From positions 124,001 to 188,000 of the forward strand of contig JAVLUZ010000547.1 of NCBI GenBank assembly GCA_036768485.1: a DNA stretch of 64,000 nucleotides. The letters are read 5' to 3'. Below, piece after piece: positions 14,410-28,776 of this stretch. Position numbers and translations under genes: made by a program. The notes beneath the pieces were generated by a model. The model made no database searches, was not told the DNA's origin, and saw nothing but the letters and a program-made list of their open reading frames with translations. This DNA is from Mermis nigrescens (taxonomy: Eukaryota > Nematoda > Enoplea > Mermithida > Mermithidae). Each line of letters begins with the position of its first letter. Position 1 is the first letter of the stretch.

Positions 14410-14413
14410 CATA
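14410..14413 (+). repeat. target-site duplication CATA (left)
   Basis: CATA directly before the 5' LTR matches CATA directly after the 3' LTR (28773-28776). Four bases is within the usual range for Ty3/gypsy integration and shows that both ends belong to one insertion. Confidence 0.8.
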
Positions 14414-15471
14414 TGTAACTGCGAGAGTTACACGTATAGGCGAACTTGCCTTAGCAGTTCGCGGTAGCCATCACATAGCCAATACTAGTAGCTATCTACG
14501 ATAGTGTACTGTGGGCTATGCCTTCGGTCTTCCCATTTTTCCCCAATTTTCAATAATAAAAAACAATAAGATACTTGTCCGGTAGCATAGAGTTAAGTGT
14601 ATGATAATAGTAATTGTTTCATGCATACCGCTTGTGTAATCGATAACATTCGATCTGAGATAAAAGCTTATCAGTATTACGTTAAATTGATCTTTGTTTA
14701 ATTTACTGTAATGGTCCTTGAGGCCAGTGTACTTAGAGTGGCTTTGAGTTGTGTTGTTGGCAATCTCGTTGGCCATTGTACATGTGTTTAATCCGTACGT
14801 TCTCGTTTTTCTTTTTGCCGTATTTTGTTGTCCGGCTATAGGCCGTGGATTCTTCGTTGGAAATAAAATAGAGAAAAACCTACCCAGGGGTTTTTGGTTA
14901 TACCGAGGGTTAGGTCGGTTATTGCCCACGTCGAGGATTACAACTCATCAGAGTGGAAGGATAGGTAATTTCCGTATGATTGCTATTTTTATTTGGAAAT
15001 CTTAATTTATTTCTCAAACCTAAAATTGATCAAAAATATTATCTAATCTTTAGAGATGATTGATCAGGTTAGAGCTCGATGTTGTTGTTTTCATAGTCTA
15101 TTGTGCTACACGTATTAGGAACCAAAAACATTTCGAATCTGGCACTGATTAGAAAATAAGTTAAATATTCAACTTGAGCTTGAGATAGGTCAACTGACCT
15201 CCGCGGCAAATTCCGAGATTAGGTAGGTAGCCTTAGGTCTTAGGGCGTAGCTGCTGAGATCACCCGACAAGAAGCAGCCAGCAATATTAGGGCTGAGGGG
15301 ATCGAAGCCGTAAGGTCTGTAAGAGCCCAAAGATCGAAAGCTATCCAGGGCTGCGCGATCGGGGCCAGCGCTAAGCGTAGACTTAAGTACCTACGTACCT
15401 AAGTAACTCTCGAAGGCAAATACACGTGTTCTATGTCGTCTTTGTACACATAGGACACCCCTGTATTTACA
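14414..15471 (+). repeat. 5' long terminal repeat
   Basis: It begins TGTAACTGCGAGAG and ends GTATTTACA, the TG...CA boundaries of an LTR. AATAAA at 14862-14867 is a possible poly(A) signal. A minus-strand open stretch (14516-14929), also partly kept in the 3' LTR, has no recognisable protein character and is taken as chance. Confidence 0.95.
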
Positions 15472-16055
15472 CTGGATGTTCCCTCTTTTAGGCTGCTAGC
15501 TACAGCCGAACTGATCAATCATCGTAAAATTATTTTTCGATCCAAAAATCATTATTTTGGCCATCTAAATATGTGTAACGTTTCGTTCACCTTTGTTGTT
15601 GTATCAACCGCGATCGTGGCAGTGCGCAATTTAAGTAAGCGTCCGTGGTAAAGATTTTGTGTATCGTGGTAAAGTCATCGTTATTTTTCTATTTCCGTTG
15701 AATCTTTATCGACGAAGGCAGCTCTCACGCTTGCATTTTTCTATAAACGTCGACCCGCAGGCGACGATTTATCATTTTTCTCTCCTGACGAAGAAATTCC
15801 GTCAGTGAAGTCTTTACCTACCTGTTTTTCTTACCACGTACATTTTCTTGCGCTTTAGGCTTAGTCCTACCTGTCTTCGATCATTTTACGTCAGGTATAT
15901 CTTACTTCACGTAAGCAAATACTATTCACGTGAAAAAACCTGTTTTTCGGATCGACAAAGGCCTAATTCGAAACATTTATTTTGGGCAAAATTTCGACGT
16001 ACTGAAATTTATTTTTACCCAAGGCCATATTTTTCGACATTTTTGATACCTAAAA
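15472..16055 (+). other. retrotransposon leader with primer-binding site
   Basis: One base after the LTR comes TGGATGTTCCC (15473-15483), placed and starting (TGG, complement of tRNA CCA) as a primer-binding site. I could not assign the tRNA. The remaining leader up to the gag ATG is noncoding and may contain packaging signals. Confidence 0.65.
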
Positions 16056-18668
16056 ATGGCAGGAAAAAAGGTTTTGCGGACACCGCCCGCTAAATTGAAA
16101 AAACCTTCTACGCCACCTACGTCATCTCGCCAATTACCCACCGCGCCTGTTGACTCTAATAGCGCGAGTAATTCTGCTAGTAATGACACAAATACGAAAG
16201 ACGTATCCAGTAAGGCGAATAATGATAAATTACCCGCGTCACTAAATGCCGCGAGCAATACACAGTCGGAAGATGAACTGTTATTGACTACCGTGCGATC
16301 ACGCATTAATCAAACTTCGATAACTAGTTCGGACCCTAATATCGATAATTCATCGAATCATACAATGATTGATAATACGACTACTCTTAATACGGCAAAT
16401 AATCCTGAAACCAGTTCGGAGCGCGAAAATCCCAATTCTGATGTAGAAAGTAATCATAGTCATTGCATAAATGCCAACAAAGAGCGTGCTAATGCTAATG
16501 TGACTAATGATCTTATTTTAAAAGCGCTACAAGCTATTCATTTGCAATTTTCGGACCTTTCTACGTGCGTTAATCAAGATAAAAAGGAAAATGCGGATGA
16601 AATGCGTAAACTGCGTCTGGAGCTAAGCACTATGCTTAAACCCCAACCAGTTTTGAATCGCATAGAGAATAATTCATCTGAGCGTGTTAACCACTCAATC
16701 GATAGCGCAAATTTTTCTGAATTTAATGCGCAAAGTGCGAATCGTGCGCAAAGTACGCATCGTGCATCTTCACTGTTGTCCACTGGCAACAGCGCGTCAA
16801 ATTCACGCTCACCTTCGGAAACTGTTCCTGAAAATATCGTTCAAAATTGTACAAATCGCGCGCCTGAGATATCTAATTTGTCACAGAATCCTTTAAATAC
16901 GGGTTTGCAACCAGTGCAAAACTCGGGTTTTTCGGATAACATACCTATGATTTCGCAGCCGTCGGTACCGATTTCGCAGACGTCGCGATCTCGGCCTTCG
17001 CTGTCCTTAAATCGTAATGCGCCTTCCTTTGTACCTAATTCTTTGAATGTGAACTCGCAGCAGCAGTTAAATCCACCACCGCTGCAATACTTTCCACCAC
17101 AAGGAGAAATTCTTCCAAATAATTTCGTACCTAATCCCATAAATGTGGAAATACCACCTAATAATCCTATTTTGCATTCTTCCAATATCGAAATGCAACC
17201 TGTTGAGATAAATCTATCTGGCATTAATAACGAATCTGCAAATTTACAAAATGAATCTGCGCCCCTACCTGAATCATCTAGTAGGAGAAAACATGTCAAA
17301 TTTTCTGATGAAAGTTCATCTAATAGTTATGATCGCCCGCGCAGCCGTCGCTCACGTCGCAAAAGTAGATCGCGTAGACGTCGTCATCGCTATACTTCAG
17401 ATTCTTCATCTGAAAGCTCGCATGGTGGATCGCGTCTCGCTGATTCCTTGAATCGCGGACCATTTATGACACAAATGCAAATTGCAATTGCTAACAAAAA
17501 ATTTTTTGATGGAGATAAAACGGATATAAAAGCATATTTTGCAGAATTTGAGTCACTTGCCGATACCTATGATATCGACAAAGCTGATCGTTTAAAATTC
17601 GCAACTGGATTTCTTGATCCCTATGCTATGCGTTTATACCGTTCGTTACCTGCTGATATACAACAATCCTATTCGAAAATGAAACACGCGCTAATAACCG
17701 AATTTTGTCCAATGGACACCGGTGCGCTCTTTAATCGTTTTCTGAATCATAAACAGCAGCCTAACGAATCGGTTAAAGCTTATTATCTCTCGCTTCGCGA
17801 AGAGTTAATTAAATCTGATCCTTATCTTGAAGTTGATTCGCATCATTTTAATAATTTAATGCGACATCAATTAAAAGAAGGTTTATTACCACACATTTCG
17901 AAAGAGGCATATCATAAAAAACCTAGAGCATCATTAGCTGAATTTTTGGACAATGCGCTAAGCGCTGAATTTGCTAATAAAGAATTTGAGGATAAAAAGG
18001 CAGTAACACCTTATGTATCGGTAACAGCTGCTCCCGTTGGCAGTGCAGTACCTAAAGATACTCCTCGCGCACCTAACCAAAATGATTCAAATCGTTCGCG
18101 TCATAGAACGTTTCATCGCTCGTCGCGTGCTGAAAAACCAGAAAGTTCCTCTCGTAAATATTGCACCTTTTGCAAACGCATAGGTCACATTTATGAGGAA
18201 TGTTTCACGCGTCAGAGGCAAGAAACGTCTAATAATACTAATCATAATACCCAACCTGATCGCAGTAATAATTCTATGGCTCGCAATCGCAGCCAGTTGC
18301 GTTCTTTTTGCGCCAAAATCGTTCGCCATCGCGTTCGAATTCGCAAAATAGACATCGATCTCAATCACGATATCGTAACTCTAGTCAACATCGTTCATCT
18401 AACTATGCGAATATTGATAACTGCCTTGAATCGAGGCAATCACGATCGAATTTTAGGCAAAATCGTAATGATTATTACCAAAATTCGCGTGCTAATTATC
18501 AAAATTCGCGTTACGATAATCATTATAATAATCAACCGCGACAAAATACACCTTTTGTGCAATTCCCAAATGAACAGCGTGGTATATACTATAACTCAAA
18601 CTACCGCAACGACAACAATTTTAATCGTCCATATGTCACATATACTGCGGATAACCAACCCACCATGA
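16056..18668 (+). CDS. gag: Gag (capsid and nucleocapsid) of the Ty3/gypsy element
   Basis: 870 codons from ATG 16056. Residues 1-440 are Ser/Asn/Thr/Pro-rich and likely disordered, with an Arg/Ser stretch near 425-450. The capsid-type domain follows (about 470-640): FFDGDKTDIKAYFAEFESLA, then HALITEFCPM and NEFVKAYY-like helices typical of retrotransposon Gag. A CCHC zinc knuckle, CTFCKRIGHIYEEC, is at residues 703-716. The real Gag frame probably leaves this frame near 18300: beyond it this frame turns into an Ile-rich, low-quality sequence while the -1 frame continues an Arg/Ser-rich nucleocapsid tail into Pol. Gag assembles the virus-like particle and binds RNA. Confidence 0.9.
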   Translation: MAGKKVLRTPPAKLKKPSTPPTSSRQLPTAPVDSNSASNSASNDTNTKDVSSKANNDKLPASLNAASNTQSEDELLLTTVRSRINQTSITSSDPNIDNSSNHTMIDNTTTLNTANNPETSSERENPNSDVESNHSHCINANKERANANVTNDLILKALQAIHLQFSDLSTCVNQDKKENADEMRKLRLELSTMLKPQPVLNRIENNSSERVNHSIDSANFSEFNAQSANRAQSTHRASSLLSTGNSASNSRSPSETVPENIVQNCTNRAPEISNLSQNPLNTGLQPVQNSGFSDNIPMISQPSVPISQTSRSRPSLSLNRNAPSFVPNSLNVNSQQQLNPPPLQYFPPQGEILPNNFVPNPINVEIPPNNPILHSSNIEMQPVEINLSGINNESANLQNESAPLPESSSRRKHVKFSDESSSNSYDRPRSRRSRRKSRSRRRRHRYTSDSSSESSHGGSRLADSLNRGPFMTQMQIAIANKKFFDGDKTDIKAYFAEFESLADTYDIDKADRLKFATGFLDPYAMRLYRSLPADIQQSYSKMKHALITEFCPMDTGALFNRFLNHKQQPNESVKAYYLSLREELIKSDPYLEVDSHHFNNLMRHQLKEGLLPHISKEAYHKKPRASLAEFLDNALSAEFANKEFEDKKAVTPYVSVTAAPVGSAVPKDTPRAPNQNDSNRSRHRTFHRSSRAEKPESSSRKYCTFCKRIGHIYEECFTRQRQETSNNTNHNTQPDRSNNSMARNRSQLRSFCAKIVRHRVRIRKIDIDLNHDIVTLVNIVHLTMRILITALNRGNHDRILGKIVMIITKIRVLIIKIRVTIIIIIINRDKIHLLCNSQMNSVVYTITQTTATTTILIVHMSHILRITNPP

Positions 18669-20872
18669 ATGTGCCCCCACCGCAGCCAACCCTTACATCT
18701 CCTCATGATGTAAACACGGTTACTGCGAAAGGGCCAGAATCTAGCGCACGTCCTAATCTATTTGCGTCGCAAGAATTTCTCAAAGAGTACGAACGTTTAC
18801 AACGTCGTCTCGCAACTTATGAAAAAATCAATTTACCTGCATCTAAGACTTTAGATCCTAATATTCCTATTGTAAGCCATGCTGGGACAAATTTACCCAC
18901 CATTCTCGTTAAAGTTCATGGCATTGACGTACCTGCTCTTATAGATACGGGTTCACAGGTCACCATGATGACCACGTCAGCATTCTTACGTCTTGGTTTT
19001 AATTTACCACCTAAACAAGTCTCACAAGTCGTACATGGTGTAGGCGAAATCACCGCAGTAGTTCGATATAAAGTAAACATGACTTTAACTATCGCGGAAC
19101 AATCTATTTCTACCTCAGTATCTATAATTGATCACTTGCCGGAAGACATGCTCTTAGGATATGATTTTTGCGAATCCGCACTCATGTGGGTTAATCCTAT
19201 TGAGCGCTGTGCTTTTATAAACGGCATAAAGATTAATTTGCTATCATCTCACGAAAAATTGCAATTTCGTACAAAACCCAACACAACTACCTCTGGTGTT
19301 GTGTGTGTGCATGTTTCGTTACCTGAGCCTGTTATAATACAACCTAGGCATGAAGTAATTACACCTGGCTATATAAGTCATGGTTCTTGCAATTTTGATT
19401 TCGCATTATTCGAACCAAATCCCGATTTTATGGAAAAAACCTCACTTTTTGTTGCTCCGTCTATAGTCGATGCTTCACAACCCTTAATACCTATTCGCGT
19501 CTGTAATATCTCTAAAGCGCCAATTCGCATTGACTCTGGTGAAATAATAGGTTCTTTAACCTCTGATGCCAAAGTTGTGTCGCATGTTTCATCTTTTGAT
19601 GATAGGACACCAGAACTTTTTGCATCAATAAATAAAGCTTTAAACGGCTCCGCCGTTGATTCTAGACAACAGCAACAAATTCGTGAACTTTGTTTAAAAT
19701 ACGACTCAATTTTTGCATTAAAAAACGAACCTCTCGGACGTACCCCCTTGATGAAACATCATATTGACACAGGGGATAATCCGCCCGTTGTTGGAAAAAC
19801 CTATCGTGTTGAACATTCTAGAAGAGAATCTATGCAGAAAATTATAAATGAAATGCTTGCAGATAAAATTATTCGACCTACAACCAGCCCATGGGCAAGT
19901 CCACTATTTCTCATAGGAGAAAAGGACGGTTCCCTTAGGCCGGTCGTCGATTATCGACGGTTAAATGACGTTACTAAAACGCAAGTTTATCCTCTTCCAC
20001 AATTAGACGATTATTTCGATACTTTAGGCAATGCTGCATATTTTAGCACACTAGATTTAAAATCTGGATACTGGCAAATTCCACTCGATAATAAATCTCG
20101 CGAAAAAACGGCATTCATATGTCCTGTTGGTCATTACGAATTTGAAGTTTTACCTTTTGGTTTAAAAAATGCGCCCGCAGATTTCCAAAGGCTAATGGAG
20201 CTTGTGCTCGCAGGTCTAAATTGGAAATCTTGTCTCGTTTACATTGATGACATAATTATTTTTTCGCGCATTTTCAAAGACCATTTAAAAGATCTTGAAA
20301 ATGTCTTTATTGCTCTTAAAAAAGCAAACTTACGTGTAAAGCCTGATAAATGCCATCTTGCGCATGCAGAGGTAAAATTTCTTGGCCACAGCATAAGTGC
20401 AATGGGCATCGCTCCTGATATGTCCAAAGTCGCAGATTTAATCTCGTTTCCCGTACCGAAAACCGTTAAATCTTTGCAAAAATTCCTTGGCTCAGTACAA
20501 TGGTTTAAAAAATTTGTTAAAGATCTCGCTATAATCGCTAAATCGTTATTCCATCTTCTTCGTAAAGATGTCGAATTTTGCTGGAAGGCCGAACACCAAA
20601 CCGCCTTTGAGCTTCTGAAAAAAGCATTTACATCTCTACCTATTTTGCAATTACCAAAATTTGACGATGAGCACCAATTTATTTTAACAACTGACGCAAG
20701 TAATTATGCGTTAGGTGCTATTTTGACGCAAAAACATTTACCATCCAAAAATCGCTTTATTCTTAGCTACGCTAGTCGCGTGCTAAATTCTGCCGAATGT
20801 AACTACGCTACTTTGGAAAAAGAAGCGCTAGCGGTAGTGTGGGCCATCAAGCATTATCAACATTATCTTTAA
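18308..20872 (+). CDS. pol: Pol, first part: protease, reverse transcriptase, RNase H start
   Basis: 854 codons in the -1 frame relative to gag, so expressed as Gag-Pol by frameshifting or broken by an indel at the T-run near 18303-18307. Residues 1-120 continue the Arg/Ser-rich nucleocapsid tail. The aspartic protease has ALIDTGSQVTMM (active Asp about 213). The reverse transcriptase has TLDLKSGYWQI (about 583) and VYIDDIIIFS (about 645), so both catalytic segments are present. RNase H begins LTTDASNYALGAIL (about 796) and is cut by TAA at 20870-20872 inside the domain. Confidence 0.95.
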   Translation: MRQNRSPSRSNSQNRHRSQSRYRNSSQHRSSNYANIDNCLESRQSRSNFRQNRNDYYQNSRANYQNSRYDNHYNNQPRQNTPFVQFPNEQRGIYYNSNYRNDNNFNRPYVTYTADNQPTMNVPPPQPTLTSPHDVNTVTAKGPESSARPNLFASQEFLKEYERLQRRLATYEKINLPASKTLDPNIPIVSHAGTNLPTILVKVHGIDVPALIDTGSQVTMMTTSAFLRLGFNLPPKQVSQVVHGVGEITAVVRYKVNMTLTIAEQSISTSVSIIDHLPEDMLLGYDFCESALMWVNPIERCAFINGIKINLLSSHEKLQFRTKPNTTTSGVVCVHVSLPEPVIIQPRHEVITPGYISHGSCNFDFALFEPNPDFMEKTSLFVAPSIVDASQPLIPIRVCNISKAPIRIDSGEIIGSLTSDAKVVSHVSSFDDRTPELFASINKALNGSAVDSRQQQQIRELCLKYDSIFALKNEPLGRTPLMKHHIDTGDNPPVVGKTYRVEHSRRESMQKIINEMLADKIIRPTTSPWASPLFLIGEKDGSLRPVVDYRRLNDVTKTQVYPLPQLDDYFDTLGNAAYFSTLDLKSGYWQIPLDNKSREKTAFICPVGHYEFEVLPFGLKNAPADFQRLMELVLAGLNWKSCLVYIDDIIIFSRIFKDHLKDLENVFIALKKANLRVKPDKCHLAHAEVKFLGHSISAMGIAPDMSKVADLISFPVPKTVKSLQKFLGSVQWFKKFVKDLAIIAKSLFHLLRKDVEFCWKAEHQTAFELLKKAFTSLPILQLPKFDDEHQFILTTDASNYALGAILTQKHLPSKNRFILSYASRVLNSAECNYATLEKEALAVVWAIKHYQHYL

Positions 20873-22836
20873 GGTAAAAAATTTATTGTTGAAACTGATC
20901 ACCAAGCATTAACTTGGCTACTTAACGTTAAAGACCCATCGAGTCGTTTACGTTGTTGGGGTCTCAAATTACAAGAATATGAATATGATATCGTTTATGT
21001 TCTTGGTGCATATAACTGCGCAGCTGATCTTCTTTCACGACATCCTAAATATGATCATGCAGAACGCAAATATAAATTAGAGCGCAAAAATGTTGTTAAC
21101 ATCGCAAATTTAGAATTGGAAGATTCAGAGTCAGATGATGAATCATTTCCACCTGACCAATCGCGCGATAATGCGCCTACTGCACCAATTAATCATCCAA
21201 TTGCACAAAATAATAACCCAACTGCGCAAATCGATCCTACTAATACAAAACCACCTACATTTTGTGAACGCTTTACTTACCGATGCTGAAAAAGCCAAAA
21301 TGCTAACACCTGCGCGTTTACTCGCAGAGCAACGTGCAGATGACGAATTACATAAAATTCGCATTGCATTAAATGATTTAACCACGAAAAATATTGTGAC
21401 AAATTTTTTCTCGTAAACGATGTACTTTTTTGTAGATTCCAACCTAAACGTTCACTAACAGTCGTTCATCAAATTGTCATTCCCAAATCTTTACGTCGCT
21501 TCATATTGACGGAATTTCATGATTCTATTTTCGGAGCTCATTTTTCATCACGCAAAATCTTGCCCGCCATACAAATGCGTTATTGGTGGCCGTGCATGGA
21601 AAATGATGTGATCGCGTGGTGTAGGAATTGTGATGTGTGCTTACAACGTAAGGTCGCATTAAATTCCACATCCGTTCCATTGCAACCAATCGAAGTATCC
21701 GCGCCCTTTGAACTAATTGCGTGTGATTGTTTGCATATGCCGCGATCTCCCTCCAGAAATGACCAAATTGTAGTTTTTATGGATTATTTTACCAAATACG
21801 TGGAAGCTTTTGCTGTTTCTGACATAAAAGCAACAACAATTGCAAATTTATTATTAAGAGAAATTATCCCACGTTATGGATTTCCTAAGAAATTTTTGAC
21901 AGATCAGGGTAATTTCGGAAGTTTGTAAACTATTAAACGTTCAAAAAATATTTACAACCCCATATCACCCCCAGTGTGATGGGTTGGTGGAACGTTATAA
22001 TCGCACATTGATTGATTGCTTGTCTAAGCTGAGCGCAGCGTTCCCAGTATGATTGGGAGCAATTTCTACCTTTTGCGTTATTTGCATAACGCGCGACTCC
22101 ACAATCATCAACTAATATATCTCCTTTTGAAATGCTTTATGGTCGCGAACCAGCATTTCCACTTGACACTCTACTCATAAATGACTTTGTGATGAATCCG
22201 AATTTACCATCTGTTGCGGAAAAATACGTCATTGATTTAAAGTTAACTTTACAAGATCTACACGAAATCGCATCTCAAAATCTAGCTCAAGCGCGTAAGC
22301 AACAAAAAACTCAATATGACAAGTCTGTAACTCAAACAAATTTTTCTCTTTCGGATATAGTTTACCTTAATAATACCTCAGTAATTCAACCTGAAATCGG
22401 TAAACTATCCCCCAAACGTGTTGGACCATATAGGATAATTGACTTACCTACGCCTGAAACTGCGAAAATCGCGTGTGTCTATAATCCGCTAATCACTCAT
22501 CTCGTTCACCGGAATAGACTTCTGCCTGAGCCCAAATTACCGTACTCAGATTTAATTGTGGAAAAACAGGCGTATGTCCCTGGCGATTTTGTTTTGGTAA
22601 AATTACTACATCGCCCTCTCGCCCCGGCAGTAGTCATAAGTTTTGAGGATTTACCGGGCAGGGAACAAAAAGCTAAGGACTGCGCGCCTATACGTTTATT
22701 AAATGGCTCTAAAACAGCACATGCCGTACCATTATCTAATGTTTTCCCTCTTGCGGACCCATGGCTGCTCAAGGTACACCCAACAAGGAGGCAGTGCTTG
22801 AGGCAGCTGGTCGCCAATGCAAATTCGAGGGCGTGA
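20873..22836 (+). pseudogene. pol: Pol, second part: RNase H end and integrase, broken frame
   Basis: After the TAA the same frame carries the rest of RNase H (VETDHQALTWLL, then ADLLSRHP) and an acidic/Pro/Asn linker to about 21270. Frame changes occur near 21270, 21410, 21915 and 22035, with another TAA at 22087-22089. The integrase shows its HHCC zinc region (21530-21640), catalytic Asp at 21725 and 21902, Glu at 21990, and a GPY/F module (SPKRVGPYRI). The distance between second Asp and Glu is about 29 codons, not the usual 36, so codons are missing as well as a frame. A domain after GPY/F is described separately. This copy's integrase cannot be made as one chain. Confidence 0.93.
22570..22766 (+). 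other. possible PWWP/Tudor-like module at integrase C-terminus
   Basis: In the last intact integrase frame the segment PGDFVLVKLLHRPLAPAVVI, followed about 20 residues later by APIRLLNGSKTAHAVPLSNV and FPLAD, has the order of a PWWP domain (GDLVWAK, P-x-x-PA-x-V, a strand with F/L-x-G-T, then V-x-x-x-x-L-x-P). The aromatic cage residues of PWWP are replaced (PLAP). In chromoviruses a chromodomain sits here and guides integration to modified histones; a comparable role is inference only. Confidence 0.4.
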
Positions 22837-23149
22837 TCCCGCGTCCCTAGATGAGTTTCGTTTGGCTCTGACCAATATGGCTTTGGAGCGGGGATTGGTT
22901 GTACCAGACCCGCTGCCACAAAACGATGCTAGTCGTGTTGGCGGTCTAGAAGCACTTACCGCAAAAATGATACAACACAAAACATCACATATAGCCACAA
23001 TTCACAGTAAACGTATAAATGACCAAGAACTCTGGTGGGAGAACAGATTTGATAGATTCCCTTTGGCTACCCTACGTGTACCAAAGAAGAGACTTCTATC
23101 CACTGTTTTAATCACCAACGACCAGGAGTCTTTTGGGGCTATTTAGGCT

Positions 23150-23800
23150 TTGATTCAGCCATCAAACATGACAAATGGCACTTTATTCTTAGGCTACAAT
23201 TCGGAATTTGTGAATGACAGAAAAGGCAGAAACTATAACAACTGGGATTTGCGTTTTAAGCAGCTGTGTCCCACCTATCAGGACCTCCATGGCCCATTCG
23301 TTCGCTATGTCCAAGTTGCTAGCGCGAACGGTCATGTGTTCTGCTGGGACATCGCTGAGTTCCCAACACCTCCGTTTGGGCTTCATCAGCTGCTCGAAAC
23401 GCGTCTACCGAATGTAAATATGGTGTGTTACGACCCTACGCAAGACAGACTTGCGTATTTTCATGTTTACGGCCCAATTTTTGAAGAAATTTTGGCAATT
23501 CCTGATGCCGAGATTCGAAATAAACGGCATTGGAAAGATCCGTTTAGTGCAAATTTTATTGATATTCAACCTTTGGCGAGAGCATTCACTCGCCGTCTCC
23601 ATATTACGGCGCATTCACACAGTTTGAAGCGCTTGGCTGAATTTTTTCTTTGACATGACTATTGATCCCAATGCGCCTGATAATTTCGGAGAGGCGTGGA
23701 GTTTACCACTAACTCGGGATATGCAACATTATTTAGCGATGGATGCCTTGATAACTATCAATGTTTTCATATTGATAGAAGGCTGCTTGCAAAATAATCA
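23150..23800 (+). other. DEDDy 3'-5' exonuclease-like domain (RNase D/EXD1 type)
   Basis: Five consecutive family landmarks are visible: an Exo I-like strand LFLGYNSEFVNDRKGR (Asn at 23198-23200 where Asp is usual, Glu at 23204); the beta hairpin VQVASANGHVFCWDI; an Exo II-like MVCYDPTQDRLAYF (Asp 23444); FIDIQPLARAF, the stretch after Exo II; and WSLPLTRDMQHYLAMDALI, where Y-x-x-x-D (Tyr 23730, Asp 23742) is the Exo III signature of the DEDDy class. A one-base frame change lies near 23645 between the fourth and fifth landmarks. Known members trim RNA or DNA 3' ends; some animal relatives (EXD1, Egalitarian) lack catalytic residues and act as RNA-binding scaffolds. Confidence 0.75.
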
Positions 23801-24884
23801 CATTACTGACAATAGAAAGCCTATGCCAATCTCGTTTAAAGGCGACGAGTCGCAACTTAAAGCTAACGAATCGAAAACTAGACGGCGTATACCGTTGTCG
23901 TCTCGCAAGCCACCACGGGGCAAGTCGACCAGCACGGCGACTGATGTTTCCGTTGATTCCGATGGCAGAGAGCTAATCACAGTTGAGGACTTTTATGGTC
24001 CAGCTCCGCAACCGCCAGCGGCCATAGCCGCAGCCACCACCATTGCCTCTGTAATGGAAGCGTTGGCTCATACTAATGTTTTCGATAATCCAGATCTGAA
24101 AGTTCAGGGGTCGCAGGCCATTGCCGACTCAGTGTCGGGCCCGGCTAATGCACCTGACACAGAACCTAAGTCCAAACCAACCAGCTCAAGCACACCAGCT
24201 TCTGCGATTTCTTCGCAAACCGATATTCCTTACAATTCTCCTATGGTTGGAATTGAACAATCTGCATCCACAGAAGACAATGATTTGTCTCCTAAACGTT
24301 TAGTAATAGCGTTATCTGACGCTGAGGCGGAAAGGCAAGCAAACGTGTCACCACCGCGTACCACACACGCAGCAATGGCTCAAAAAGGGGCTACTACCGT
24401 TTCGCAACCGATTGTTTCGCAATCGCTTGCGGCGGACCAGCAGGCACCCTTGGGCATCGGTTCGCTCATACCTTTACCGACTTCTCAGCCGGATTGGGTA
24501 GAGCGTCAACCTGAACCTGACGTTATTATGACCGAAATTATAGGTTTTCCACCACCACCTCAACGCTTAGTACCCACACAGGAAGTACAACAAGCAGCAT
24601 TGTCCTCGCAAATTGCGTCACATTCCGCGCCACAAGGCGAGTCGAGTTCAGTGACACCTACTACTCGTTTCACGGCTCTTATGGCCATGACGGGAGTGTC
24701 AAATACCGTGGCAAATATTCAACCACAGGTTATTCAGAATCCATCGTCGAATCTAGAAGTCACAGCACCTGCGCATATTGAGGCCATACGCGAACGCGTA
24801 TCCGCAGAAGAGAGCGCGAGAGCTCAAAATCGCTCGCGTTATGTGCAACATTTTTTCAACATGATGGAGACCATGACACGTTAA
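23655..24884 (+). CDS. open part of third frame: exonuclease end and disordered linker
   Basis: About 409 codons. The first 50 finish the exonuclease domain. Residues 60-400 are rich in Ala, Pro, Ser, Thr and Gln without predicted structure by eye (KPPRGKSTSTATDVSVDSDG, QPPAAIAAATTIASVMEAL). It ends at TAA 24882-24884, but the same frame stays open beyond it. I infer one continuous protein in the ancestor. Confidence 0.75.
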   Translation: MTIDPNAPDNFGEAWSLPLTRDMQHYLAMDALITINVFILIEGCLQNNHITDNRKPMPISFKGDESQLKANESKTRRRIPLSSRKPPRGKSTSTATDVSVDSDGRELITVEDFYGPAPQPPAAIAAATTIASVMEALAHTNVFDNPDLKVQGSQAIADSVSGPANAPDTEPKSKPTSSSTPASAISSQTDIPYNSPMVGIEQSASTEDNDLSPKRLVIALSDAEAERQANVSPPRTTHAAMAQKGATTVSQPIVSQSLAADQQAPLGIGSLIPLPTSQPDWVERQPEPDVIMTEIIGFPPPPQRLVPTQEVQQAALSSQIASHSAPQGESSSVTPTTRFTALMAMTGVSNTVANIQPQVIQNPSSNLEVTAPAHIEAIRERVSAEESARAQNRSRYVQHFFNMMETMTR

Positions 24885-26219
24885 GCACCGTGCTATATTG
24901 CACCGGATGTATTGCACGAGTTACGCTCTTATCTGGGTGAAGTCGCAGGAATGCGTCTGTACGACCAGTTGGTCGAGTGCGCCCAAGTGCACTTCGACCG
25001 CGTGTACGCGGCACATGTGCATTACGCGGCTGCGACTGACACACCCTCGCGTCTGTTAGTTTGGTCTACAGTCGCACAACCTCTGGCTGATGTTGATCGT
25101 GCGCCGGCACCTCAATTTATCAGCAAAATGAATGTTTTTAACCGATTATTTTACCCAGACCAATATTTTGTGCGCACCCGGTTTTTCATTACAACCGGAA
25201 TGATGCTGTATGAAGTTCCTTTACAGTGCCTGGTAGTCCATCCACACCTTGACGCACCAAGCGTGGTGATTGATGGCGTTGCGCACCAGATTCTTTCAGA
25301 ATTTTATCCGCACAGAATGTCACCAGCGCCAGATCATTTAGCGCCAATCTTAATATTGACGCGTCAAATGGTCGATATATTTGATACTTTCCGAGAGTTC
25401 CAATCCTTATACGATTCGGAGTATCGACATATGATGATCTTTTCCACAATAGACGTCATGCGCGCTCGAGTGCTATTGGGATTTTTGGACAGGAAGTTCC
25501 ACTTTTATGCGTATGCCTACGGCAATGCCGCGATAGGCTGGTGCATGGTGGAGCAGCTACGTTGTATGTTGCGCGTAGCTTTCCTTGGCGAATCTTATAC
25601 ACCGTCACCAAGTGAGGCCTTCCCGGAATTCCCGGAGTTAACGAGGCGAATCAAAAGTCCAAATGTTTTACACAGCATGATTCGGCAAATTCGGTTGGCA
25701 ACCGATCCGCCACTTGAAGTTCCCGTTCAATTTGACCGTTTCCGAGGTCAACAAAAATTGGTGTTTTACCTTAAACACCGAATTCAAGGTGATCTAGAGA
25801 AAATTCGAAAAGAGAGACGACAGGCATCCTCGCAGGACCCAAGTGCATCCTCAGCAAGCCTTGATATGCCCGAAGTCGATCTATCTCTGGAGGCACAAAT
25901 TGAAATGCGTAGAGAACGCATGACGATCGAGCAACCCGATTGTGAAAATCTTGCTACAGAGATGCCAAGGCGTGCAACAAAATTACGCGCCGCCGGCTCT
26001 CTTGCTGAATCCTCCGAAGTTCGTCATATGTCCGAAGACGAACTTAAGGCTAAATTGAATCGATTTTATGATACAAAATCCGAGCATACCTTGCGTCGGT
26101 TAAAAAATTTGGAAAAACAACAAGTCAGAAGACTTGTTCAAGCTGAAGCTGCAGCTAAACTAAGAGCTCGTTTAGGCCAAAAGGGATCTAAGCAGCAAGA
26201 ACCGCAATCATCCCGGTAA
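24885..26219 (+). CDS. open part of third frame: unrecognised globular region and charged helix
   Basis: In frame with the preceding segment; an ATG-less start at 24885 or an internal start near 24912 are both possible. About 444 codons. The first 300 are mixed alpha/beta in character with many aromatic and Met residues (LFYPDQYFVRTRFFITTGMM, IDVMRARVLLGFLDRKFHFY). From about residue 330 it becomes a charged helix (MSEDELKAKLNRF, LKNLEKQQVRRLVQAEAAAK) that could be coiled coil. I do not recognise a family. Confidence 0.7.
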   Translation, partial: APCYIAPDVLHELRSYLGEVAGMRLYDQLVECAQVHFDRVYAAHVHYAAATDTPSRLLVWSTVAQPLADVDRAPAPQFISKMNVFNRLFYPDQYFVRTRFFITTGMMLYEVPLQCLVVHPHLDAPSVVIDGVAHQILSEFYPHRMSPAPDHLAPILILTRQMVDIFDTFREFQSLYDSEYRHMMIFSTIDVMRARVLLGFLDRKFHFYAYAYGNAAIGWCMVEQLRCMLRVAFLGESYTPSPSEAFPEFPELTRRIKSPNVLHSMIRQIRLATDPPLEVPVQFDRFRGQQKLVFYLKHRIQGDLEKIRKERRQASSQDPSASSASLDMPEVDLSLEAQIEMRRERMTIEQPDCENLATEMPRRATKLRAAGSLAESSEVRHMSEDELKAKLNRFYDTKSEHTLRRLKNLEKQQVRRLVQAEAAAKLRARLGQKGSKQQEPQSSR

Positions 26220-26915
26220 CATTATGCTCAAATGCATCATCGTTCACAATCACAAGTACAATTGCAAACATCAGTAAAACCGCATATACAGCAACATACA
26301 TGACCACAGACCCAACCGCGGCAACAGCAATTTACGGAATCGCGTCAGCGTTCCGAGGCATATTCACAGGCCAATGCTGGTCATCTGTCGCGCTCGCAAC
26401 AGCAGCAGCCTTATGAATATTACCGCCCGCCTCAGTCAAACCGTGGAACTCATCAGGGCCGGTCACAATCCCGTCAACGGCAACAATGGGACCAATCATA
26501 TCATTCACCGTTGGAACAACGTCAATCAGCCACCGGGGTCTATCAGCCACAACCTCGACCAGGCGCACTTTTGCCTAAAGCGTGGCCTGTTACGCAATCA
26601 CAACAGCGTCCACGCAAATCTTCACGTGAACAAACTCTCGGTTTTACTCCGGAGCAATTATTTACTCCGGTGCAAGCTATATAGCGTCGTTACGCGGACG
26701 ACTACGAGGAAGACGACAATGAGGACGACGATCGTCCAGTTGATCCACATCAACGCTTACGCCAACATATGTACGGGCGTAGGCAATCGCCATATCAGTA
26801 TTGCGAACGTTTGAGTACACGTCGCGAACCGGAATCGGATCGCGATTATTTTCAACATCAACGACGTCACGGAAAACCGCGTGGCTCAAAGGCCTATTAT
26901 CAGGATCAATATTAA
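26220..26915 (+). pseudogene. Gln/Arg-rich tail of the third frame
   Basis: The frame continues after TAA 26217 with stops only at TGA 26301 and TAG 26682. Composition is strongly Gln/Arg/Ser/His (QSRQRQQWDQSYHS, KSSREQTLGFTPEQL), then an acidic run ADDYEEDDNEDDDRP, then Arg/Tyr-rich to TAA 26913. Such tails often bind nucleic acid; this is inference. Confidence 0.6.
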
Positions 26916-27704
26916 TTTATAAGTTTGATGTACAGAACTTTTTGGAACTCTGCAAACGGCGTCAAATTCGACCAGCAGCTTTTCTGTCATTTTTCGTTTT
27001 TTGTCCTGATGTGGATTCCAGGACTTCACGTATTATTCATTTTCTGTGTAATTTTTTCTCTTGTCATTTTTTCTTTCTTGCTGTAAATTTTTCTTTGACG
27101 GTGCTCGTATTTTCCCCATTATCTCGCATAATTTGCCATTTTTCGTTTTTATTGTTACCTCTTGTTTTAACTTGTCAGTGTCTTTAACTTTGCTCAGCAT
27201 AATTTTGCCTTACCATTCCGTATCTTAATTTTTCTTTTTGCTCAAATAGCGGTGTTACTATTATGGTATCTTAACTCTTTAACGGACAAGGGGTTAATTA
27301 TACCCAATCTTAAAACTTTTTCAATTTAAAATTTTTCTCATTACCCGGGGACTGAAGGAGGCTAAGTGGACAGCATGATCGAATATTATGCTATGTTGTC
27401 CAAGACCGGAGTTCATCATTACTCGGGCAACAATATAGTTATACCTAGCGCCATTGACAGTGTTGCTCGAGAGTTTCCTGAGTGCGAATGAGGTCATGCG
27501 TTGGCCGTTATTTGTTATCGCTATTTGTTATTTTTTTGTTCTTTTATTTTCGTTTTTCACATTCGCTCAGGATGAGGCGTTGCGGACGCCAGAATAGAGG
27601 CGTTGCGAACGCCGGAGTGCTGAGTTGTAGAAGCGTTGCAGACACTAGCGTTGATGGTTTCCCCCAAAAAATTCTCCACTTCGTTTTAAATTTTTTTTCT
27701 ATAC
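26916..27704 (+). other. noncoding region between third frame and polypurine tract
   Basis: T-rich to about 27340, then a more ordered stretch. 27576-27590 GGCGTTGCGGACGCC, 27599-27613 GGCGTTGCGAACGCC and a weaker third copy at 27632 are short hairpins in a row; GGACAGCATGATC (about 27368) and ATGCTATGTTGTCC form another possible stem. They could be RNA export or packaging elements; no family is recognised. Confidence 0.45.
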
Positions 27705-27713
27705 GTGGGGGAG
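27705..27713 (+). promoter_or_regulatory. polypurine tract
   Basis: GTGGGGGAG directly before the 3' LTR start (TGTAAC) is the RNase H-resistant primer site for plus-strand synthesis expected at this position in LTR retrotransposons. Confidence 0.75.
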
Positions 27714-28772
27714 TGTAACTGCGAGAGTTACACGTATAGGCGAACTTGCCTTAGCAGTTCGTGGTAGCCATAACATAGCCAATACTAGTAGCTATCTACG
27801 ATAGTGCACTGTGGGCTATGCCTTCGGTCTTCCCATTTTTCCCCAATTTTCAATAATAAAAAACAATAAGATACTTGTCCGGTAGCATAGAGTTAAGTGT
27901 ATGATAATAGTAATTGTTTCATGCATACCGCTTGTGTAATCGATAACATTCGATCTGAGATAAAAGTGTATTAGTATTACGTTGATTTGATCTTTGTTTA
28001 ATCTACTGTAATGGTCCTTGAGGCCAGTGTACTTGGAGTGGCTTTGAGTTGTGTTGTTGGCAATCTCGTTGGCCATTGTACGTGTGTTTAATCCGTACAT
28101 TCTCGTTTTCTTTTTACCGTATTTTGTTGTCCGGCTATAGGCCGTGGATTCTTCGTTGGAAATAAAATAGAGAAAAACCTACCCAGGGGTTTTTGGTTAT
28201 ACCGAGGGTTAGGTCGGTTATTGCCCACGTTGAGGATTACAACTCATCAGAGTGGAAGGATAGGTAATTTCTGTATGATTGCTATTTTTATTTGGAAATC
28301 TTAATTTATTTCTCAAACCTAAAATTGATCAAAAATATTATCTAATCTTTAGAGATGATTGATCAGGTTAGAGCTCGATGTTGTTGTTTTCATAGTCTAT
28401 TGTGCTACACGTTTTAGGAACCAAAAAACATTTCGAATCTGACACTGATTAGAAAATAAGTTAAATATTCAACTTGAGCCTTGAGATAGGTCAACTGACC
28501 TCCGCGGCAAGTTCCGAGATTAGGTAGGTAGCCTTAGGTCTTAGGGCGTAGCTGCTGAGATCGCCCGACAAGAAGCAGCTAGCAATATTAGGGCTGAGGG
28601 GATTGAGGCCGTAAGGTCTGTAAGAGCCCAAAGATCGCAAGCTATCCAGGGCTGCGCGATTGGGGCCAGCGCTAAGCGTAGACTTAAGTACCTACGTACC
28701 TAAATAACTCTCGAAGGCAAATACACTTGTTCTATGTCGTCTTCGTACACATAGGACACCCATGTATTTACA
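27714..28772 (+). repeat. 3' long terminal repeat
   Basis: 1059 bp, the same TG...CA ends as the 5' copy. By eye about 30 differences from it, many of them C/T or A/G transitions and a few one-base indels. AATAAA at 28161-28166 corresponds to the one in the 5' LTR. Confidence 0.95.
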
Positions 28773-28776
28773 CATA
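28773..28776 (+). repeat. target-site duplication CATA (right)
   Basis: Right copy of the 4-bp duplication, immediately after TTTACA. Confidence 0.8.

Follow-up and report, generated by a model that had tools for sequence, protein, structure and literature searches.

Why would a retrotransposon keep a 3'-5' exonuclease where others keep an envelope gene (env)? This question, which can now be tested directly, is raised by a 14.4-kb Ty3/gypsy element at positions 14414-28772 of the stretch analyzed here, 64,000 nucleotides of the Mermis nigrescens genome (GenBank assembly GCA_036768485.1, contig JAVLUZ010000547.1, positions 124,001 to 188,000 of the forward strand), hereafter the window. The element hosts a third open reading frame (ORF3) between its integrase (IN) and its 3' long terminal repeat (LTR), with the following parts (E, expectation value; dN/dS, ratio of nonsynonymous to synonymous divergence):

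22761..26915, plus strand: ORF3, broken in the window copy, its start overlapping the integrase end; about 1384-1390 codons in intact copies
23147..23650, plus strand: exonuclease domain, Exo I to Exo II part (sister-family profile E 3.4e-7; 150 scored genomic matches)
23198..23206, plus strand: Exo I motif, N-S-E in the window copy and D-S-E in 20/20 fetched copies
23444..23446, plus strand: Exo II catalytic Asp (motif alignment)
23628..23780, plus strand: exonuclease domain, Exo III part, in another frame (joint sister-family profile E 0.0067 for 23628-24881)
23730..23744, plus strand: Exo III Y-x-x-x-D (motif)
23781..24881, plus strand: Ser/Pro/Gln-rich linker, weakly constrained (composition in other copies; dN/dS 0.24-0.25)
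24885..26216, plus strand: C-terminal domain of no known family, well constrained (no Pfam match; dN/dS 0.10-0.11)
26220..26912, plus strand: Gln/Arg-rich tail, probably disordered (composition in other copies; dN/dS 0.27-0.40)

An earlier sequence-only reading had described this region as one long 4.15-kb frame carrying exonuclease landmarks. Its placement of the start at 22761 and of the stop at 26913-26915 was correct, the start MAA(E/Q)GTP being common to all 20 fetched ORF3 copies. The window copy itself is not open, with two frame changes and internal stops at 23144, 24882, 26217, 26301, and 26682, whereas ORF3 is open over about 1390 codons in other copies. Given the base composition, a frame of 1384 codons would stay open by chance with a probability of about 10^-30. 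On the criteria of its Exo I, II, and III motifs and of family profiles, the N-terminal part of ORF3 is a predicted member of the DEDDy exonuclease superfamily. We put at roughly three in four the probability that ORF3 is an active 3'-5' exonuclease used by the element as an accessory protein, a figure that covers activity and accessory role and not the substrate.

The exonuclease domain and its sister families

The Exo I, Exo II, and Exo III landmarks proposed for the window (23198-23206, 23444-23446, and 23730-23744) are real and are conserved outside the window copy. Among the 20 fetched copies, Exo I is D-S-E in 20/20, Exo II is present in 20/20, and Exo III matches the pattern in 19/20 (L055 excepted). 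When 15 domains were aligned, sister families included, the Exo I Glu, the Exo II Asp, and both the Tyr and the Asp of Exo III were found in 15/15, and the Exo I Asp in 14/15.

These sister families occur in the same genome, which was searched as an assembly of 523,963,438 bases in 860 contigs. A search with Pfam family PF01612 returned 22 matches, including ORFs of about 430-550 residues (group 2) and of 285-332 residues (group 3); the window family is referred to as group 1. All five group-2/3 ORFs scanned as proteins (L003, L006, L011, L014, and L015) exceed the Pfam cut-off. Reverse transcriptase (RT) lies upstream of the exonuclease ORF in 7/7 loci examined (L009, L010, L011, L012, L014, L015, and L018), and Pfam integrase domains were found in 4/4 loci scanned (L009, L011, L015, and L012), showing that in two further gypsy-like groups a sister exonuclease domain follows pol. 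A genome search with a group-3 ORF gave 137 matches (743 candidates, 136 scored) at 23-100% identity, many of them broken, with open frames of up to 966 residues. Five further representatives, known from their ORFs alone and not from their element context, all keep the five catalytic positions. One of the families, with a 966-residue open frame (L077), is the nearest to the window exonuclease among those read (37-39% core identity). Overall, the window family shares 22-39% core identity with the other groups, while identity to the window RT is 45-68% for the aligned RT pieces of groups 2 and 3, not counting a 34% RT match in L010 that comes from another element. In an exonuclease tree of 15 rows the groups hold and the deep forks are weak. 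Contigs C728 and C147 hold four other PF01612 matches (L001, L005, L016, and L017) in short frames resembling exons, which may be host exonuclease genes.

Comparison of group profiles connects the window family to these sisters. Group 1 matched group 2 with a probability of 96.0 (E 3.8e-9) and group 3 with a probability of 95.8 (E 7.3e-9), with the catalytic residues aligned in both cases, although each of these profiles holds few sequences. A profile built from groups 2 and 3 without group 1 recovered both window pieces, 23147-23650 (E 3.4e-7) and 23628-24881 (E 0.0067), along with five long-frame group-1 copies (E 4e-14 to 6e-13). Of 500 shuffled sequences the best reached only E 8.9, and 0/5 reversed copies were listed. 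The first window piece was also found by the group-2 profile alone (E 1.5e-5) and by the group-3 profile alone (E 4.1e-7; best shuffle 4.6). Against the Protein Data Bank (PDB), a joint profile of ten sequences matched the WRN exonuclease (2e-11), Egalitarian (2.4e-8), NrnC (2.6e-7), EXD2 (2.7e-7), a MUT-7 homolog (2.8e-7), and RNase D (0.0071). The expectation that profile searches would identify an exonuclease is thus borne out by sister-family and joint profiles, and not by Pfam on the window pieces.

Several observations weigh against the exonuclease assignment or narrow its basis. It leans on the sister families because group 1 alone misses both the Pfam cut-off and the PDB exonucleases: Pfam on three long-frame copies gave an exonuclease match in one, below the cut-off (E 0.077), and the group-1 profile found only a ribosomal protein in the PDB (E 1.3), taken as chance. 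The Exo III piece was weak with the group-2 profile alone (E 0.16) and unlisted with the group-3 profile alone; one sister ORF of the 15 lacks the first Asp; and a structure prediction of the window piece, relevant to the RNase H-like fold of the superfamily and run from the single sequence without an alignment, reached a predicted local distance difference test score (pLDDT) of 35 and was set aside. Pfam on the ORF3 window pieces and NCBIfam on one ORF3 copy returned no exonuclease match and no match, respectively, and phmmer searches of the PDB with single window pieces found no exonuclease, with faint matches to ankyrin-repeat and unrelated chains that we took as chance. A protein database contained no relative of the L003 ORF or of residues 1-450 of the L039 ORF3. 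The same database held six relatives of pol, two of them named (Trichuris suis, 43% identity over 45% of the query, and Didymodactylos carnosus), so the ORF3 miss does not merely reflect a lack of eukaryotes there. Searches of viral contigs yielded no relatives for two alignments.

The retention of the catalytic residues bears on whether the domain could instead be an RNA-binding scaffold of the EXD1 or Egalitarian type, without catalysis, for carrying the element RNA. Egalitarian is among the best structure matches of the joint profile, and the ORF3 tail is basic and Gln/Arg-rich by composition in other copies, both of which would suit such a scaffold. We nevertheless regard it as improbable because the catalytic residues are kept, both across the fetched copies (Exo I and Exo II in 20/20, Exo III in 19/20) and across families.

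Element structure, copies, and selection

The order of Pfam domains, gag, protease (PR), RT, RNase H, and IN, is that of Ty3/gypsy elements, and together with the paired LTRs and a short target repeat it identifies the element as Ty3/gypsy. The remaining features are as follows:

14410..14413, no strand: left target-site repeat CATA, read from the sequence
14414..15471, plus strand: 5' LTR, TG...CA, 97.1% identical to the 3' LTR
16056..18668, plus strand: gag frame with Retrotrans_gag domain (PF03732 E 1e-5)
18272..20872, plus strand: protease, reverse transcriptase, and first part of RNase H (PF13650, PF00078, PF17919, and PF17917, all over cut-off)
20873..21286, plus strand: remainder of RNase H, behind an in-frame stop (PF17917 E 2.8e-7)
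21377..22833, plus strand: integrase, in broken frames 21377-21925 and 22090-22833 (PF17921 7.8e-20; PF00665 5.7e-5, below cut-off)
27714..28772, plus strand: 3' LTR, 97.1% identical to the 5' LTR
28773..28776, no strand: right target-site repeat CATA, read from the sequence

The claim that the element lies inside two LTRs with a matching target duplication was confirmed: the LTRs share TG...CA ends and are 97.1% identical over 1061 aligned columns (Jukes-Cantor distance 0.027), and the 4-bp repeat CATA flanks both ends (14410-14413 and 28773-28776). In the window copy pol is broken, as is ORF3. For many of the window family's integrase matches the open frame is about 2275 residues long, which suggests that intact copies, in contrast to the window copy, would have gag and pol joined in a single frame. 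Pfam matches in the PR/RT frame (18272..20872), taken up to E 1, include no dUTPase family, and Rfam and tRNA scans of the window were empty. The integrase C-terminal piece 22090-22833 shows a weak PWWP-like match (PF00855 E 0.14), and at two group-3 loci, L011:2808-4706 (E 1.6e-10) and L015:2746-4341 (E 6.7e-13), a PWWP domain closes the integrase. Such a tail could be a chromatin-reading module other than a chromodomain that steers integration; a literature text search, with most subscription papers and all of bioRxiv outside its scope, turned up no report of a PWWP-type integrase tail.

The family to which the element belongs is very abundant in a genome whose repeats, according to the available text of the assembly report, amount to 440.21 Mb or 83.98% (PMC10989877). 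The exonuclease piece 23147-23650 yielded 1508 first-look candidates. The 150 that were scored all show 87-100% identity to the window piece; 31 of these 150 fall within frames open for 1370 residues or more, and 33 within frames open for 1300 or more. Equal scores and spacings recur on different contigs in the match list, indicating that duplicated or alternate-haplotype stretches were counted repeatedly and that separate insertions are fewer. The 20 fetched copies, chosen for long frames, encode 1124-1398 residues, and no pair is more than 99.1% identical. RT was found at the expected upstream distance in 13 of 14 ORF3 copies examined, three of which have frame breaks inside RT. For the integrase, 2692 candidates were found and 150 scored, and for 79 of the 150 the match list places an exonuclease no more than 3 kb downstream. 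The spacing between the two is nearly always one constant value, the two modal values representing the same spacing on two strands. Eight of the 71 integrase sites without a listed partner were read at the predicted 501 bases, and all eight hold the exonuclease, in one case frame-broken. ORF3 is therefore part of the element, since the exonuclease stands at a constant distance behind the integrase, and a flanking host gene is rejected on the same ground, as the sequence-only reading had concluded. Other copies do carry the frame, the point on which that reading had staked its claim, as seen in 150/150 scored matches and in 8/8 integrase sites read.

A test for purifying selection, also proposed in that reading, was carried out on the 20 ORF3 copies, which split by sequence into subfamilies of 6 and 14 and thus give 84 between-subfamily pairs. 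Across these pairs dN/dS was lowest in the exonuclease core (0.043) and higher in the C-domain (0.11), the linker (0.24), the N-terminus (0.30), and the tail (0.40); the C-domain and tail values are inflated by several frames that end out of register. Restricting the analysis to 11 full-length copies (18 pairs) gave, in the same order, 0.048, 0.10, 0.25, 0.32, and 0.27. The exonuclease core is the most constrained section of ORF3 and, at 0.041-0.056, is nearly as constrained as RT (0.027, nine copies). The copies were picked for long frames, a bias towards intact genes that counts against taking the low ratios at face value; this choice alone cannot explain a contrast between domains of one frame. 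We conclude that the exonuclease core is under strong purifying selection. The element probably needs the exonuclease part, because selection has kept that part nearly unchanged. The broken window copy might suggest a chance passenger, a piece of a host exonuclease that was captured by a single element and has since lost its use. This explanation is contradicted by the open ORF3 frames at 31/150 scored matches and by the low dN/dS of the core (0.043-0.048), and we reject a neutral passenger as scarcely credible.

Synonymous divergence (dS) differs sharply between pol and the exonuclease. Between subfamilies RT has a dS of about 0.27. In four copies compared at both integrase and exonuclease (four pairs), a 600-base integrase piece gives 0.18-0.26, against 1.0-1.2 for the exonuclease core (Fisher p 9e-9 to 8e-14). 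Within a subfamily, the pair L045/L047 follows the same trend (0.22 for integrase vs 0.64 for core, p 2.6e-5), and the pair L039/L057 does not (0.09 vs 0.13, p 0.43). Along ORF3, dS climbs after about residue 75 and drops after about residue 1150. Over residues 1200-1390 of the fetched copies, the tail dS is back to 0.1-0.5, near the pol value. Most simply, a diverged relative may have supplied the ORF3 body, replacing it as one block, or pol may have been homogenized across subfamilies; this rests on four copies, and constraint on synonymous sites could also contribute.

Possible roles of the exonuclease

On this view ORF3 would carry a DEDDy-type 3'-5' exonuclease at its N-terminal end, joined by a long flexible linker to a C-terminal domain, and would finish in a basic tail rich in Gln and Arg. 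In the mechanism that we propose, the exonuclease would be catalytically active, the tail and the C-terminal domain would hold ORF3 near nucleic acid, and the protein would shorten the 3' ends of RNA or single-stranded DNA. The C-terminal domain itself showed no significant match to gag or to eight sister-family loci.

The position of ORF3 between the integrase and the 3' LTR invites the idea of an envelope substitute, in which ORF3 stands in place of env as a particle or cell-transfer protein. Pfam found no envelope family at E up to 1 in three copies, and by hydropathy, the only criterion applied, with no signal-peptide prediction made, the sole segment that reaches the usual membrane threshold is the Exo III helix itself (Kyte-Doolittle mean 1.64-1.69 in three ORF3 copies). 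An env homolog was rejected on these grounds. In group-2 loci an envelope-like domain lies upstream of pol and the exonuclease ORF downstream: a Monjiviricetes fusion glycoprotein domain precedes RT in the same open frame at L009:3-3872 (E 9.9e-18), L010:1-2679 (E 2.3e-15), and, below cut-off, L012:5031-9500 on the minus strand (E 1.2e-4). The exonuclease is not simply an env replacement, because L009 and L010 carry the fusion glycoprotein domain as well as the exonuclease ORF, the domain being over cut-off beside that ORF in 2 of the 3 group-2 loci tested; we consider an envelope-like function very unlikely.

Two substrates deserve more weight. As a tentative first choice, the exonuclease would act on host silencing RNA or on the ends of transcripts that feed silencing, ahead of a role in processing the 3' ends of cDNA or RNA. 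In the latter case ORF3 would be a replication factor that trims or proofreads the 3' ends of element RNA, primer, or cDNA in the particle. Such a role is consistent with the exonuclease found at 8/8 integrase sites read directly, with a core constraint near that of RT (dN/dS 0.041-0.056 vs 0.027), and with the suggestion of RNA 3'-end processing in the available text of a report on rotifer elements (PMC5408684). The divergence between groups, however, is far above that of RT (22-39% identity in the core vs 45-68% in RT pieces). To our knowledge, most Ty3/gypsy elements replicate without such an exonuclease, which also counts against a replication factor, and we hold this role to be possible but somewhat unlikely.

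The preferred substrate would make ORF3 a counter-silencing factor, breaking down or shortening the small RNAs of the host or the double-stranded molecules from which they derive. The accessory position of ORF3, the spread of such ORFs within one genome, and the diverged alleles that seem to have taken the place of the ORF3 body all fit this proposal. There is a viral parallel, in that arenavirus exonuclease domains help to suppress innate immune signalling (PMC7968707, available text). Clade I nematodes are described, in the text available, as lacking PIWI-interacting RNAs (piRNAs), depending on other small RNAs, and keeping an RRF-3-type polymerase (PMC4323106), so that an anti-silencing role is attractive if the host belongs there. 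On the other side, the exonuclease core shows no sign of positive selection. A broader and more doubtful conjecture is that DEDDy exonuclease genes circulate as exchangeable cassettes among the LTR families of one nematode genome, where they would counter small-RNA silencing in a lineage without piRNAs.

Comparison with known systems

The sequence-only reading knew of no standard Ty3/gypsy architecture with a DEDDy exonuclease, which overlooks the LTR elements of bdelloid rotifers. DEDDy RNase D-like ORF3s were described in 2017 in the Juno and Vesta LTR elements, and also in Athena elements (PMC5408684; this and the related reports are cited for their available text). Rotifer LTR elements gained a DEDDy ORF3 at least twice, and its function there is unknown; the report calls intragenomic ORF3 variation mostly neutral, although the clones sequenced were env-like and GDSL-like and not DEDDy. 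Related cases, or citations of the rotifer report, are found in PMC3706591, PMC5718144, and PMC6431247. In our literature text search, with most subscription papers and all of bioRxiv outside its scope, no title or abstract beyond the rotifers described a DEDDy ORF3, and none reported a 1390-residue form, measured purifying selection, or block replacement of ORF3.

Among cellular proteins, ORF3 resembles WRN and then Egalitarian, NrnC, EXD2, the MUT-7 homolog, and RNase D in profile similarity and DEDDy motifs, but these lack a retroelement context, and unlike WRN-type proteins ORF3 has about 1000 extra C-terminal residues of no known family. Terminons and Athena Penelope-like elements (PMC6431247) and Dada DNA transposons (PMC3706591) are likewise mobile and carry DEDDy exonuclease domains, but they belong to other element classes and place the domain elsewhere. 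With errantiviruses, the insect gypsy elements that carry env, the window element shares a third ORF between integrase and 3' LTR, although no envelope features were found in ORF3.

The closest parallel is therefore with Juno and Vesta, compared here by their published description (PMC5408684). In both systems a DEDDy RNase D-like exonuclease is encoded by an ORF3 behind the pol of an LTR element and occurs in more than one LTR lineage, and no transmembrane domain is reported for the rotifer proteins in the text available. The rotifer pol has a dUTPase between PR and RT, which we did not find in the PR/RT frame of the window element; its authors report DEED instead of DEDD; its LTRs measure 159-551 bp, compared with 1.06 kb here; and its families average 1-2 full-length copies, compared with the large family described here. 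What the exonuclease ORF3s do for the element was left open in the rotifer report, and selection was unmeasured there. A DEDDy ORF3 is thus already known as a kind, and the form in a nematode genome, with measured selection, appears to be new; its large family offers a clear and strong constraint on the core, many sister ORFs, and a natural contrast with the adjacent pol.

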